Assembly: GCF_905479755.1 (NCBI RefSeq)
Contig: NZ_CAJQNT010000004.1
Span: 1 to 64,000, forward strand
DNA length: 64,000 bases
DNA from: an uncultured Schumannella sp.
GTDB lineage: Bacteria; Actinomycetota; Actinomycetes; Actinomycetales; Microbacteriaceae
Direction of reading: 5' to 3'
This document shows positions 1 to 44,284 of the stretch, one piece after another; positions within the stretch are counted from its first letter, which is position 1; the number at the start of each line of letters is the position of its first letter. Below the pieces are notes generated by a model, which searched no databases, was not told the DNA's origin, and was given only the letters and a program-made list of their open reading frames with translations. Position numbers and translations under genes: made by a program.

Positions 1-230
1 AGCTCCCCGCCGGTTGAGTAGGCCGCAGGCCGTATCGAAACCGCGCCCCACCCGGGGCCTCGATACGTCGCGACGCGACTACTCGACCGCCAAGCTCCCC
101 GCCGGTTGAGTAGGCCGCAGGCCGTATCGAAACCGCGCCCCCGCGGGTTGAGTAGCCGCGAAAGCGGCGTATCGAAACCCACGTCCCCGCCGGTTGAGTA
201 GCCGCGAAAGCGGCGTATCGAAACCCACGT
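1..230 (+). repeat. Array of GGTTGAGTA..ATCGAAACC hairpin repeats (left array)
   Basis: Five units of 31-34 bp: 12-42, about 57-88 (inverted), 104-134, 146-179 and 192-225. Each has GGTTGAGTAG at one end and GTATCGAAACC at the other, so the ends can partly pair (GGTT with AACC). The centre is a small perfect stem whose sequence differs between units, for example CCGC-GAAA-GCGG and GGCC-GCA-GGCC. Pairing is kept while bases change, so a folded structure appears to be conserved. The family resembles REP/REPIN-type palindromes. Spacing is irregular and the units fold internally, so this is not a CRISPR array. Confidence 0.9.
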
Positions 231-282
231 CTCCTGTGGATCGCGCCCGCGCCCGACGCCCTCACCGCGTCATCATCCGGGG

Positions 283-570
283 ATGATGGGCGTCTACATC
301 CTGCGTTGCGGCGACGGCAGCTATTACGTCGGAAGCTCCCGCAACATCGAGCATCGGCTCTGGCAGCACTCCACCGGTGCCGGCAGCGCGTACACGGCTC
401 GGCGGCAGCCGGTCGAGCTGGTCTTCGTGCAGGAGTTCGACCGCATCGATGACGCGTACGCCCGCGAGAAGCAACTCCAGGGCTGGTCGCGGCGGAAGCG
501 TGAAGCGCTGATCGACTCGCGCTGGAATGAGCTGCCCGGGCTCAGCAGGAAGGTGTTCGGCGGCGAGTGA
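283..570 (+). CDS. Small GIY-YIG family endonuclease
   Basis: A 95-residue protein consisting of little more than one GIY-YIG nuclease fold (UPF0213/YhbQ size class). The N-terminus holds the signature as VYILRC followed about ten residues later by YYVGSS; next come the conserved Arg in RLWQH and a Glu in REKQLQGW, both positions expected in the active site. The family cleaves DNA with a divalent metal. Two in-frame ATGs (283 and 286) are possible starts, and no strong Shine-Dalgarno is visible. The gene stands alone between two repeat arrays of opposite orientation. Whether it acts on these repeats is unknown. Confidence 0.85.
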   Translation: MMGVYILRCGDGSYYVGSSRNIEHRLWQHSTGAGSAYTARRQPVELVFVQEFDRIDDAYAREKQLQGWSRRKREALIDSRWNELPGLSRKVFGGE

Positions 571-580
571 GGGCGGCCTG

Positions 581-757
581 GGTTTCGATACGCGCCCGAA
601 GGGCGCTACTCAACCCGCAGAACCCTGCGGTTTCGATACAGCGCCGCAGGCGCCTACTCAACCCGCGGAACCTTGCGGTTTCGATACGCGCCCGAAGGGC
701 GCTACTCAACCCGCAGAACCCTGCGGTTTCGATACAGCGGCGCAGGCGCTGCTCAAG
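581..757 (+). repeat. Array of GGTTTCGATA..TACTCAACC hairpin repeats (right array)
   Basis: Four units of about 35 bp at 581-615, 629-663, 677-711 and 725-757, in the opposite orientation to the left array. Units 1 and 3 are identical with the core GCGCC-CGAA-GGGCGC. Unit 2 has a GCGCCGCAGGCGC core, and unit 4 is degenerate at its right end. They are separated by 13-bp linkers of the type CGCAGAACCCTGC, which are themselves palindromic. The array starts 10 bp after the stop codon of the GIY-YIG gene. Confidence 0.9.
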
Positions 758-779
758 CGGCGAGCGGATGGGGACGCGA

Positions 780-809
780 AAGGGCCCCGGTCCGAAGACC
801 GGGGCCCTT
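780..809 (-). terminator. Hairpin terminator after the solute-binding protein gene
   Basis: Perfect 13-bp stem AAGGGCCCCGGTC / GACCGGGGCCCTT with loop CGAA, 10 bp beyond the stop codon of the 820-2085 gene. There is no U-tract, which is usual for high-GC actinobacteria. Confidence 0.85.
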
Positions 810-819
810 CCGTCACCGC

Positions 820-2085
820 TTAGTACGCGGTGTAGGTGTTGTCGTCACCGTAGATGTAGATGCCGATCGACGCCTCGGTCGGGTCGCCGACCTCGTCGAA
901 CGTGATCGGGCCGGAGACACCGTCGTAGTCGGCAACGCCGCCTCCGAGGATGATGTCGGCGCACGCCTCGAAGGTCGTGCACTTCTCTCCGTCACCGGAT
1001 CCACCGGAGACTTCCTGCAGCTTCGCCGCGACATCGGCACCCTCGGTCGAGCCGGCCGCGAGAGCGGCGAGCGAGAGGAGGATGACGGCGTCGTAGGACT
1101 CGGCCGCGTAGCTGTACTCGTCGAGCGCGTCCGAGCCCTCTTCCGCGAGGAAGGCGTCGAGTGCCGAGGTGAAGTCACCCAGGGTGTCGACGCTGAGGCC
1201 GGGCAGCGTGCCCTTGGCGCCCGTGAGGGTGCCGGCAGCGAACTCGTCACCGAAGTTGGCGAGGTTGCCGTCAACGAAGTAGAGCTTCTCCGCGGGGAAG
1301 TCGCTCACGACGTTCGGGATGATCGTCGAAACTTCGGCGAACGTGATCAGGGCGATCGCGTCGGGGTCCGCCGCGAGCACCTCCGAGATCTGCGCGTCGA
1401 AGGTCGTGTCACCCGTGTTGTAGGTCGGGGCCGCGACAACCTCGCCACCGGCGGCCTCGAAGGCCTCCGTGACGTACTTCGCGAGGCCGGTGCCGTACGA
1501 GTCGTTCAGCACGATCATGCCGAGCGTCTGGTTGCCGTCTTCCGCGATCAGGTTTCCGAGCACCTCACCCTGCAGGACGTCCGACGGGGCGGTACGGAAG
1601 TAGAGCCCGTTGTCGTCGTAGGTCGAGAAGGCGTCCGAGGTGTTGGCCGGCGAGAACTGGATCACGCCAGCACCCGTCACCTGGTCGATGAACTGAAGCG
1701 AGACACCCGAGGATGCCGCACCGAGAATCGCCGAGACGTCCTCGCCGAGGAGGCGGGGGATTTCGGTCTCGTAGGCCTTGTTGTCGGTGTCGCCCGAGTC
1801 GCCGTAGACGATCTCGAGGCTGAGGCCGGTGGTCTCGGCGTAGGCCGACACCTGGGAGGCCGCGTACGCGACGCCGGCTTCTTCCGGCGGGCCGAGGAAC
1901 GCAAGGTTACCGGTCTGCGGAAGCGCGGTACCAATCTTGAGCGTCAGGTCTCCGGCCGGGGTCGACCCCTCGTCGGTCGGGGCGCAGCCGCTGAGCACGA
2001 GGGCGGTCGTCGCCAGAATTGCGACACCACCGATCGATGCCTTCAGCGACCGTGAACGAATGGCGTGAGCCTTCGTGCTGGTCAT
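820..2085 (-). CDS. ABC transporter substrate-binding lipoprotein, branched-chain amino acid type
   Basis: Periplasmic-binding-protein-like fold type I of the LivJ/LivK or urea/amide-binding family, 421 residues. The start chosen is the ATG at 2085, because GAGGAG lies 5 nt upstream; an earlier in-frame ATG at 2133 has no such site. The N-terminus is a lipoprotein signal: Arg/Lys-rich, hydrophobic, then the lipobox LSGC with Cys34. The mature part opens with the typical LKIGTALPQTGNLAFLG. The ligand cannot be named from sequence. The C-terminus (IGIYIYGDDNTYTAY) closely matches the neighbouring paralogue at 2238-3494. No permease or ATPase genes lie nearby, so it must work with a transporter encoded elsewhere. 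Confidence 0.85.
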   Translation of the reverse strand: MTSTKAHAIRSRSLKASIGGVAILATTALVLSGCAPTDEGSTPAGDLTLKIGTALPQTGNLAFLGPPEEAGVAYAASQVSAYAETTGLSLEIVYGDSGDTDNKAYETEIPRLLGEDVSAILGAASSGVSLQFIDQVTGAGVIQFSPANTSDAFSTYDDNGLYFRTAPSDVLQGEVLGNLIAEDGNQTLGMIVLNDSYGTGLAKYVTEAFEAAGGEVVAAPTYNTGDTTFDAQISEVLAADPDAIALITFAEVSTIIPNVVSDFPAEKLYFVDGNLANFGDEFAAGTLTGAKGTLPGLSVDTLGDFTSALDAFLAEEGSDALDEYSYAAESYDAVILLSLAALAAGSTEGADVAAKLQEVSGGSGDGEKCTTFEACADIILGGGVADYDGVSGPITFDEVGDPTEASIGIYIYGDDNTYTAY

Positions 2086-2145
2086 GTTGCTCCTCATCGT
2101 GTTCAGGACAGGGCGGTGCCGCGAGAGCAGCACTGCGTGGGTTTC

Positions 2146-2174
2146 ACGCTACGGGGCGCAGCAACAACGAACAA
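2146..2174 (-). promoter_or_regulatory. Candidate promoter of the 820-2085 solute-binding gene
   Basis: Minus-strand -35 TTGTTC (2169-2174), a 17-bp spacer, then -10 TAGCGT (2146-2151), which fits the actinobacterial TAnnnT pattern. Transcription would begin near 2139, giving a leader of about 54 nt before the ATG. The -35 is weak, as expected for an activated promoter. Confidence 0.5.
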
Positions 2175-2182
2175 TTCATCAC

Positions 2183-2200
2183 TGTTACAACCGTGTAACA
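2183..2200 (-). promoter_or_regulatory. Perfect palindrome TGTTACA-N4-TGTAACA, possible GlnR-type operator
   Basis: TGTTACA ACCG TGTAACA is a perfect 7-bp inverted repeat. Read as GTTAC-N6-GTAAC it fits the published GTnAC-n6-GnAAC pattern of the nitrogen regulator GlnR. Its centre is about 52 bp upstream of the predicted start site, just outside the -35 box, which suits an activator. GlnR control of an amino-acid-type binding protein would make sense, but the regulator's identity is an inference. Confidence 0.5.
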
Positions 2201-2237
2201 CGGTCCGAATCGTTATATTCGACGAATTTCGTCGCGA

Positions 2238-3494
2238 TCAACCGATTTCGGTGCTCTTCCGGGTGAACTTGTTGTCGGAGCCGTACTGGTAGATGCCGTA
2301 GGAGCCGCGGGTCGGGTCACCGTTCTCGTCGAGATTCAGCACCCCGCTCAGGCCGTCGTAGTCGGCATCCGGTTCGGTGCGAAGCACCGAGGCGCACTCC
2401 CCGAAGCTCGTGCACTTGATGCCGCCGACGCTCGCGTCGATGAGCGCGGCGCGCAGCGCCAGGGAGTCGTCGCTCCCGGCGGTGACGGCGGCAAGCGCCG
2501 CGAGCACGGTCGCGTCGAACGCCTCGACCGAGTAGCGGTACTCGCTGACCTTGGGGTCTTCGCGCTTGATGAGGGCGCTGAACGCCTTGTCGCCGGGCGC
2601 TCCCTCGAGGATGGCGTTGGCGCCTTTCAGCGTTCCGGAGTCGAGCGACTGCGAGTAGTCGGCCATGTTGAGACTCGTGAGCCAGAGCTTCGAGCCGCCG
2701 AGCTTCGCCTTGGTGAGCGCCGTGATGTAGCTCCGCGTGACCTTGCCGTTGTCGGTGGTCGCGAGCACGACGGCGTCCGGCTCGGATGCTTGGATCTCGT
2801 CGATCACGTCGTCCACCTTGGAATCACTCGTGATGCGGATGCTGGCGACGAGTTCGCCCCCCGACTCCTCCAACGAGGTCGCCAGGGGCGACACCAGCGA
2901 CTGCCCGTAGGGGCCGTCGACGTAGATCAGTGCCACGCGCTCCTGCTCGCGCTCCGGCAGTAGCGAACCGAGCACGACGCCCTGGTGGTCGTAGCTGGCG
3001 ATGGTGCGGAACACCCAGTTGGCGGTGTCGAAGCTCGTCAGCTGGGGCGACGTCGCGGCGGGCGTGATGATCGGTATCCCCGCCTCCGCGGCGAGCGGGA
3101 GGAGGCGCAGCGTCAAGACGGAGGTCGACGGCCCGATGATCACGTCGACACCCTTGTCGACGAGTTCGGCGAAGCTCTTCTCGAGCTTCTTCTCTCCCGC
3201 GTCGGAGGAATCGCGGTGAACGACCTCGACCTTGGCGCCGAGTACACCGCCTTCGTCGTTGATCTGGCGGACAGCGGCGTTGACACCGGCGACCTGGCCG
3301 TCGCCGAGGTATTCCAGATCACCGGAGGTCGGGAACAGGGTGCCGATGCGCAGGACGCCGTCGCCGAGGGCCGTCGCGCTCGGCGTCGGGGTCGGCGTCG
3401 GCATCGCGACGCGCTCTTCGGCGCACGCCGAAAGCAGCGTGCCGGCGAGGACGAGCGCCGTCACGGCACCGAGTCGGGCGAGACCGCGCGGCAT
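2238..3494 (-). CDS. ABC transporter substrate-binding lipoprotein, paralogue of 820-2085
   Basis: A 418-residue type I periplasmic-binding-protein homologue. AAAGGAG precedes the ATG at 3494. The signal sequence ends in the lipobox LLSAC (Cys24), followed by a Thr/Pro-rich linker (TPTPTPS). The ligand-binding fold then begins with LRIGTLFPTSGDLEYLG. The last 40 residues (LDENGDPTRGSYGIYQYG) parallel the end of the downstream paralogue, so the two genes are probably an old tandem duplication. It lies 40 nt after rarD on the same strand. No cognate permease is in the window. Confidence 0.85.
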   Translation of the reverse strand: MPRGLARLGAVTALVLAGTLLSACAEERVAMPTPTPTPSATALGDGVLRIGTLFPTSGDLEYLGDGQVAGVNAAVRQINDEGGVLGAKVEVVHRDSSDAGEKKLEKSFAELVDKGVDVIIGPSTSVLTLRLLPLAAEAGIPIITPAATSPQLTSFDTANWVFRTIASYDHQGVVLGSLLPEREQERVALIYVDGPYGQSLVSPLATSLEESGGELVASIRITSDSKVDDVIDEIQASEPDAVVLATTDNGKVTRSYITALTKAKLGGSKLWLTSLNMADYSQSLDSGTLKGANAILEGAPGDKAFSALIKREDPKVSEYRYSVEAFDATVLAALAAVTAGSDDSLALRAALIDASVGGIKCTSFGECASVLRTEPDADYDGLSGVLNLDENGDPTRGSYGIYQYGSDNKFTRKSTEIG

Positions 3495-42512: not shown

Positions 42513-44284
42513 TTGCCGACGCTCACGTTTCGAGACGAGACCACGGTGCGATCGAGTTCAGTCGCGGAGACGGTCGTCTCTTGGCCCGTGTTCAAGTCGA
42601 CGCCGGGAAGCCCGACCGCGACGTATCCGAGGGTCGCCCCTCCGGAGATCCCCGCCTGGCCCGAGAACACCTGGCCCCGGAAGGTCGTGCTGGACCCGAG
42701 CGACACGTCGCACGGGGTGTACATCATGACGCTCAGGTTGGTGCTGAAGCTGAACCCGCCGGAGATGCTGTACGAGTTGTTGCCGCTCGTGCACGTGGGC
42801 TGATCGTTGTCGGTCTCGTCGGGAGTGACCAACCACAGCCGCTTGGCGCTGCTCGCGGTGAACCCGCCGCCGCCGCTCAGGCTCAGCTTGTTGGTGAAAA
42901 TCGCGGTGTCGGCCGTCAGGGTCACCACGTCGCTTCCCCCGATCGAGATGCCCTTCGAGCACCCGAGCGCGTTGATGAGGACCTTGCTGCCGGCGGCGCT
43001 GTTGATCGCGGAAACCACCTGAGAGTACGAGCACGACGATCCCGTGATGGTCTTGACGGTGAAGCCGTCCCACTCGCTCGGGTCGTAGTCGAAGTCAACC
43101 CAGTCGGGCACGAGCGGCGCCGTGGGCGCCGACGGATTCGTCGCGTACGGGCTCGAGTTCGCCGAGCTCGAGGCCACCGTCGTGGTGCCGCCGACGAGGC
43201 CGCTCGAGTTCCTCGGCTGCGACAGCGACGCCGTACGAAGGTTCTTCTCGATCTTCGAACCCCAGTCGAGGGTGGTCGCACCGTAGACCCAGGCGTGGCC
43301 CTTCACGAGGCCGCCACTCTTGAACGTCAGCGTGCCCGCGGTGAGGTTGCCGCCGACCGTTCCCGAGTTCTTGAAGTTCGCGAGGCCGGTGACCTGCACA
43401 TTTCCGGCGACGGTGCCGCCGTTGGAGAAGTCGATGCTTGCCGCCGAGACGTTGCCGCCGACCGTCGCTCCGCCCGACATGCTGACGTCGTTGGTGACCC
43501 ACACGCTCCCGCCGACCGAACTACCTCCCGTGATCGAGATGGCGGTCGCCACGGCGTTGCCGCCGATGTCTGGGCCACCCGGCATGGTGATGACGCCGGT
43601 CGCCCACGCATTCCCCGTGATCAGGCATCCGCCGGCGACTTTCAGGTCACCGTTGGCGACGACGATATCGGTTTCGCCGTCGGCGCCACCCGTGCAGTCC
43701 ACGTCGCCGGTCTTGATCAAGATCGCGGGGTTCGAGCCGTCGACACCGACCAAGGAGCCGCCGCCGGAGAACCCGGTCGCGCTGAACGCGTAGACGGCCG
43801 GCCCGGTCGCGTTGATCTGGGCCGACGTCGTCGCGTTCGACAGCACCACTTCGAGATGGCTGGAGTCGTGAGCCGAGTTGCCCGCGACGCCTTCGGCCGA
43901 GGCATACCCCGTCGAGAGGATGCGCACCTGAGTGGTGAGGCTCGCCGGGCATCCTCGCGTCCAGCCGGAGCCGAGCGGCACCCAGATCGTCGCCAGGTAG
44001 CTCGGAGTCGCGCCCGACGCACTCGCGTACTGGTTGCCCGAGGCGGAGCAGGTGCCAGCGACCAGACCGGCCCTCGCCGCGGCGACGCCCGCCTCCGCGG
44101 CCGCCTGCGACTGGACGTTGGCTCGGGCGCTCGACGTCACGCCGGTCGCCGTCACCACCGAGCTGGCAACAAGCGTCGACAGCAGCAACGACACGGCGAG
44201 CAGCGCCATCACGGACGCCATCGCCGCGCCGCGCTCCTCATCGCGCCACGCGGCCAGCCGAGAATTCACACGAGTCAAAAGCAT
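42509..44284 (-). CDS. PilX-like pilus protein with large beta-helix, polymer-forming-type domain
   Basis: A 591-residue protein. The N-terminus is PilX-like: a short basic segment, ERGAAM, one long hydrophobic helix (about 22-46) and AAAEAGVAAARAGL, the pattern of PilX N-terminal domains of minor pilus components. Residues about 190-345 are dominated by Gly/Thr/Val repeats roughly every 18 residues (SSVGGSVWV, ATVGGNVSA, GTVAGNVQV, GTVGGNLTA), which predict a right- or left-handed beta-helix like bactofilins. A Ser/Thr-rich C-terminal part (about 350-591) has three or four cysteines that could form disulfides outside the cell. It could be a tip adhesin; that is inference. It overlaps pilW-like by 10 nt and pilD by 3 nt. 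Confidence 0.7.
   Translation of the reverse strand: MLLTRVNSRLAAWRDEERGAAMASVMALLAVSLLLSTLVASSVVTATGVTSSARANVQSQAAAEAGVAAARAGLVAGTCSASGNQYASASGATPSYLATIWVPLGSGWTRGCPASLTTQVRILSTGYASAEGVAGNSAHDSSHLEVVLSNATTSAQINATGPAVYAFSATGFSGGGSLVGVDGSNPAILIKTGDVDCTGGADGETDIVVANGDLKVAGGCLITGNAWATGVITMPGGPDIGGNAVATAISITGGSSVGGSVWVTNDVSMSGGATVGGNVSAASIDFSNGGTVAGNVQVTGLANFKNSGTVGGNLTAGTLTFKSGGLVKGHAWVYGATTLDWGSKIEKNLRTASLSQPRNSSGLVGGTTTVASSSANSSPYATNPSAPTAPLVPDWVDFDYDPSEWDGFTVKTITGSSCSYSQVVSAINSAAGSKVLINALGCSKGISIGGSDVVTLTADTAIFTNKLSLSGGGGFTASSAKRLWLVTPDETDNDQPTCTSGNNSYSISGGFSFSTNLSVMMYTPCDVSLGSSTTFRGQVFSGQAGISGGATLGYVAVGLPGVDLNTGQETTVSATELDRTVVSSRNVSVGN

Follow-up and report, generated by a model that had tools for sequence, protein, structure and literature searches.

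A small GIY-YIG nuclease that very probably recognizes the inverted hairpin repeats surrounding its gene

The Ssn family, said to have been described in 2025 in Nature Communications, reportedly comprises GIY-YIG nucleases that cut single strands at specific sites and are paired with dispersed palindromes, the NTS repeats, in Neisseria meningitidis. The Ssn homologues are said to have a different cognate sequence each, and the Ssn of N. meningitidis reportedly limits or channels transformation or recombination. A second described arrangement is the REPtron, in which a Y1 HUH transposase gene (RAYT or TnpAREP) is flanked by inverted palindromes that are also dispersed in the genome (PMC3733652, PMC3116915). 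For the CGTC-tagged REPs, including dRS3 of Neisseria, no dedicated transposase has been found (PMC3733652).

Here, we analyzed a stretch of 64,000 nucleotides (the window), in which a small GIY-YIG gene stands between two arrays of hairpin repeats. We read the locus as an Ssn-like pair of nuclease and target, with recognition through the GAG/TCGA base of the hairpin and through residue 90 of the protein, followed by cutting; the probability of this reading is roughly 0.75.

The gene, its repeats, and its site

The GIY-YIG open reading frame (283-570, plus strand) encodes 95 residues and is flanked on both sides by hairpin-repeat arrays in the window sequence. The left array in the window comprises five units, four on the plus strand (12-42, 104-134, 146-179, and 192-225) and one on the minus strand (56-88). 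The unit at 12-42, which belongs to the T-A dialect, reads GGTTGAGTAG-stem-CGTATCGAAACC and is repeated with the same sequence at 104-134; the sole left unit in the opposite orientation reads GGTCGAGTAG..GTATCGAGGCC. The right array in the window comprises four units, all on the minus strand (581-615, 629-663, 677-711, and 725-758), the last of them decayed (GCTTGAGCAG). The coordinates confirm the first-pass annotation, which had described a lone 95-residue GIY-YIG gene with five hairpin units to the left and four to the right, mostly inverted.

The encoded protein is UPF0213-like. It matched PF01541 (E = 1.6e-18, 67 bits), and the catalytic-type residues Y, Y, R, H, and E (Glu62) are invariant or almost so among homologues, which extend to many phyla. 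The AlphaFold model is a confident GIY-YIG fold (pLDDT 92), with UPF0213 structures and Slx1 as the nearest structures by fold; the closest solved structures by sequence are the UPF0213 entries 1zg2 (E = 9.8e-13) and 1ywl (8e-10). The dN/dS ratio ranged from 0.03 to 0.18 in 11 close homologue pairs, which indicates that the protein is under strong purifying selection. Assignment to the group I intron homing endonucleases (TIGR01453) was rejected, with a score of 21.8 bits against a cut-off of 56.05. In a divergent nuclease clade (L160, L163, L166, L168, L169, L171, L172, and L173), flanking repeats are mostly absent and several members carry EHTVQGWLR; this clade may have a different role.

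The general repeat unit can be written NNNY-GAG-X-stem-Y'-TCGA-R-NNN, with the outer stem paired. When the pattern left the positions free, the X-Y' pair covaried (T-A 146, G-C 47, mixed 0), as did the outer pair (C-G 105, T-A 85, mismatched 3). In DNA folding, the inner stem alone was clear, and the z-scores were weak for short units; an Rfam search returned no match at the gathering score. GTAG stands directly before the stem in this dialect, and GGAG replaces it in relatives. Genome-wide counts, which rest on pattern searches, gave 39 copies of the exact repeat form in the 2.53-Mb genome (G000, 54 contigs) versus 0 for a reversed-pattern control, and 66 matches to a relaxed pattern versus 1 for the control. 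No second true array was found elsewhere in the 64 kb; the other relaxed-pattern matches are scattered, with several mismatches each, and we read them as chance.

Window position 1 is base 1 of its contig (G000:C4) and hence a contig edge. Another contig of the genome, C31, ends in 88 bases (42572-42659, L204) that are identical to window positions 1-88. This overlap falls within the array, and the break in the assembly is probably due to the repeats. C31 holds three further left units, directly after the livF stop codon; given these units and the contig edge, the true left array probably comprises eight or more units. If C31 and C4 are joined, livF lies to the left, and the module stands between convergent livF and livK. 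In nine relatives lacking the nuclease, livF and livK are 77 to 459 bp apart, compared with about 950 bp here. We regard the gene and its inverted arrays as a single module that came to lie between livF and livK. Its right-hand boundary is an inverted repeat just 3' of livK (777-812, minus strand), which is probably the livK terminator; similar hairpins are present in the empty livF-livK sites of relatives. A genome of the same genus (G001) has no nuclease gene and no repeats except for one relaxed match. A plasmid or phage origin was considered and rejected, as only remote homologues were found. Beyond the boundary, two neighboring livK-like substrate-binding genes, approximately 36% identical, occupy positions 820-3494 on the minus strand.

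Gene and repeats across related genomes

In 400 genomes of the family, covering 85 genera, a homologue was found in 92 genomes from 34 genera. The copy number reaches four per genome, and a few copies contain stop codons. Using a relaxed pattern that covers four dialects, we counted at least ten repeat copies in 88 of the 400 genomes. These repeat-rich genomes comprised 61 of the 92 with a homologue versus 27 of the 308 without one (Fisher p = 8e-28, odds ratio 20.5). The odds ratio was 14 when stratified within genera, and it is solely through this stratification that the association tests account for phylogeny. Gene presence and repeat number are thus correlated, and the outcome that the first-pass annotation would have taken as a refutation, repeats being just as common in relatives lacking a homologue, did not occur. 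Many gene-bearing genomes scored as repeat-poor because their dialects, for example CCCTGAGCCTGTCGAAGGG, lie outside the pattern. The repeat-rich genomes without a homologue include G068 (675 copies), G342, G407, G413, and G250, and the existence of 27 such genomes implies that the repeats can outlast the nuclease or exist, and perhaps move, without it. Hidden GIY-YIG genes in these genomes were also considered; the candidates were weak matches, with no comparable flanking repeats in the regions checked. No Y1 transposase (PF01797, RAYT) was found in G000 or in 29 additional genomes, of which nearly all are rich in repeats, while the profile scored in E. coli and four other controls.

The expectation that homologues would usually be flanked by repeats was borne out. 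Inverted hairpins flank 91 of 110 homologue loci versus 0 of 121 control windows, where a locus was scored as flanked if generic units occurred both upstream and downstream of the gene or if its two flanks aligned strongly in inverted orientation, and the controls were judged by the same alignment score. Within 700 bp, the repeat density was 3.0 per kb at homologues and 0.05 per kb at uvrC loci. Within 250 bp, 133 units on the plus strand and 35 on the minus strand were counted upstream, versus 60 and 141 downstream, respectively.

The repeat dialect differs from locus to locus, and paralogues within one genome often have different dialects. According to four genome-wide counts in 59 genomes, the dialect of the flanks almost always dominates the genome as a whole. 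Single-class flanks matched it in 15 of 15 cases for T/T-A, in 14 of 14 for C/T-A, and in the majority of G-C genomes. One exception is G368. In G203, one nuclease is surrounded by the T-A dialect and another by the G-C dialect, with 84 and 55 dispersed copies, respectively. Dialects also cluster on the nuclease tree, as the outer base requires 9 changes compared with 23.2 in shuffles (lowest 16).

Three groups of homologues deserve separate description. In the clade of L119, L124, L130, L133, and L134, the repeat core seems altered, and the units of L119 and L133 read GTCACGAG, not GTCTCGAG. Eight homologues from three genera (L091, L097, L099, L106, L107, L137, L147, and L153) share common flanking DNA at a chromosomal site that adjoins parA and, in the loci read that far, rsmG and parB, with parS-like sites beside it; the repeat dialects differ among these eight. 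The Rhizobiales homologues L270, L271, L272, L281, L287, L290, and L296 have CCTTCGAGG..CCTCAGGATGAGG palindromes on both sides, most of them after CGTC.

Residue 90 and the repeat base pair

One alignment column stands out, namely residue 90 of the 95-residue frame (residue 89 of the 94-residue form), which sits just past the last predicted helix. In the window, this residue is a lysine encoded at 550-552 on the plus strand (Lys89 when numbered from the ATG at 286). When at least two flank units of one class were required, Lys90 occurred at 60 of 60 loci with T-A repeats and at 0 of 73 loci with other repeats. Sixteen of the 60 belong to named genomes of five phyla that were scanned separately, and the pairing of lysine with T-A holds in Actinomycetota, Chloroflexota, Calditrichota, Bacteroidota, and Ignavibacteriota. 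The G-C repeats go with Arg (23 loci) or, in Bacteroidota, with Ala (6 loci), and the C-G repeats go with Asn, Cys, Ser, Thr, Gly, Arg, and others.

This column accounts for 100% of the split between T-A and other repeats, versus 48% for the next column. When only the nearest unit per side was used and both sides agreed, Lys went with T-A in 48 of 48 cases, and residue 90 differed in all 14 same-genome paralogue pairs with unlike tags. On well-supported branches, three independent pairs were obtained, all agreeing in nearly every draw (12 pairs on all branches); although the pattern is clean, it thus reflects a modest number of well-supported evolutionary events. No single alignment column explained the base of the outer arm.

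These results indicate that each nuclease would recognize its own repeat dialect. Since the residue tracks the base pair, the dialects match, and the repeats flank the gene, the nuclease very probably recognizes both the flanking and the dispersed repeats, judging from sequence comparison. The earlier suggestion of a GIY-YIG enzyme paired with this repeat family is consequently supported by co-occurrence, flanking, and the correlation between residue and base pair.

Proposed mechanism, alternatives, and known systems

In the proposed mechanism, the small GIY-YIG protein would recognize the repeats, both those beside its gene and those elsewhere in the genome, most likely in the form of folded single strands. 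The target would be a hairpin with GAG at one side of its base and TCGA at the opposite side. The C-terminal residue 90 would help to read the pair just inside this motif, Lys reading T-A and Arg reading G-C, and the protein would cut at the motif. Cutting, followed by templated repair, may keep or spread the repeats. The genome comparison shows gene-repeat pairing, matched dialects, a residue-base correlation, purifying selection, and an empty site in relatives, whereas cleavage and single-strand specificity are suggested by the fold and by what is reported of the Ssn family. A mobile or selfish module would account for the layout and the patchy distribution, but that the enzyme may spread the repeats is an inference. 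A broader reading, in which a bacteria-wide GIY-YIG family reads the surrounding repeats by a code at residue 90 (T-A by Lys, G-C by Arg, and C-G mostly by small or polar residues) and also spreads REP-like repeats without a known transposase, is speculative and, in our view, rather doubtful.

Several alternatives concern what the nuclease does with its repeats. It may multiply them selfishly in the manner of REPINs, by nicking the hairpins and provoking their copying in repair, as proposed for RAYTs. This possibility, which was raised in the first-pass annotation and which we hold tentatively and with the odds somewhat against it, is compatible with recognition of the repeats by the nuclease. 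It fits the patchy distribution (92 of 400 genomes), the multiple copies per genome (up to four), the stop-containing copies in some genomes, the absence of the module at the same site in relatives, the tie between repeat number and gene presence, and the matched dialects. However, we know of no strand-transfer or joining activity in GIY-YIG nucleases, neither an intermediate nor a new insertion was observed, gene-free repeat-rich genomes exist, and, among relatives, many homologues have been inherited at a single site. Slightly less probable is a role in host policing, in which the nuclease would cut single-stranded DNA bearing the repeats and thereby limit or channel transformation or recombination, as reported for the Neisseria Ssn. 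The strong purifying selection (dN/dS 0.03-0.18) and the recognition of chromosomal repeats would agree with it, but a host function alone leaves the inverted flanking arrays unexplained. Alternatively, the substrate of the nuclease might be RNA or its own locus, as in autoregulatory cutting of a transcript hairpin, with the dispersed copies as by-products. The arrays are indeed densest right beside the gene; nevertheless, the dialect match covers hundreds of dispersed copies, and the related GIY-YIG domains of UvrC, Slx1, and homing enzymes act on DNA, so we consider such action improbable.

Two further explanations would deny the nuclease any part in the association. The repeats could be ordinary REPs moved by a RAYT, among which the GIY-YIG gene landed as a passenger, and GTAG directly before the stem does recall the GTAG-tagged REPs (PMC3733652). 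Nevertheless, no Y1_Tnp domain was found in G000 or the 29 genomes, nearly all repeat-rich, while the controls scored, and in relatives the switch from GTAG to GGAG accompanies a change of the nuclease residue; this explanation is close to refuted. Even less credible is that the repeats are bidirectional terminators associated with the gene by chance. The site between convergent livF and livK would suit terminators, but neither the 91 of 110 flanked loci against 0 of 121 controls nor the residue-base correlation would be expected from them.

Read as a nuclease-and-target pair, the locus ties a specific enzyme to a very common class of actinobacterial palindromes, which occur in genomes that lack a RAYT. 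With the residue code, the pairing becomes testable by single substitutions, and targets would be predictable from sequence. The pair also offers a test case for the origin and persistence of REP-like repeats that lack a transposase.

Compared with the known systems, the locus resembles Ssn, as that family is reported, in having a stand-alone small GIY-YIG domain with its catalytic residues, a cognate palindromic repeat at high copy in the host genome, with copies close to the gene, and homologues whose cognate sequences differ. The repeat sequence differs from that of Ssn and the host is actinobacterial. In the respects that can be tested, the locus would belong to the Ssn kind, with single-strand cleavage assigned by analogy. 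The first-pass annotation had taken a nuclease of this fold in such a role to be new, a claim that is not supported, as the Ssn family reportedly provides a precedent from 2025. To our knowledge, the Ssn work does not include a residue-to-base-pair code that spans five phyla, and we believe that the residue-90 recognition code is the new part.

The locus shares with REPtrons a gene flanked by inverted, genomically dispersed palindromes and, in this dialect, GTAG just ahead of the stem, yet the tag is GTAG or GGAG, varying with the nuclease, and the enzyme is a GIY-YIG nuclease instead of the Y1 HUH transposase that defines REPtrons (PMC3733652, PMC3116915). The UPF0213 proteins (PDB 1zg2 and 1ywl) are similar in both sequence and fold; they are structural-genomics entries, and neither a function nor repeats are given in the entries listed. 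The CGTC-tagged REPs differ in sequence from the window repeats (PMC3733652). The repeats at the Rhizobiales loci bear CGTC and in this respect resemble them, and our results suggest that GIY-YIG partners are worth seeking for the CGTC REPs.
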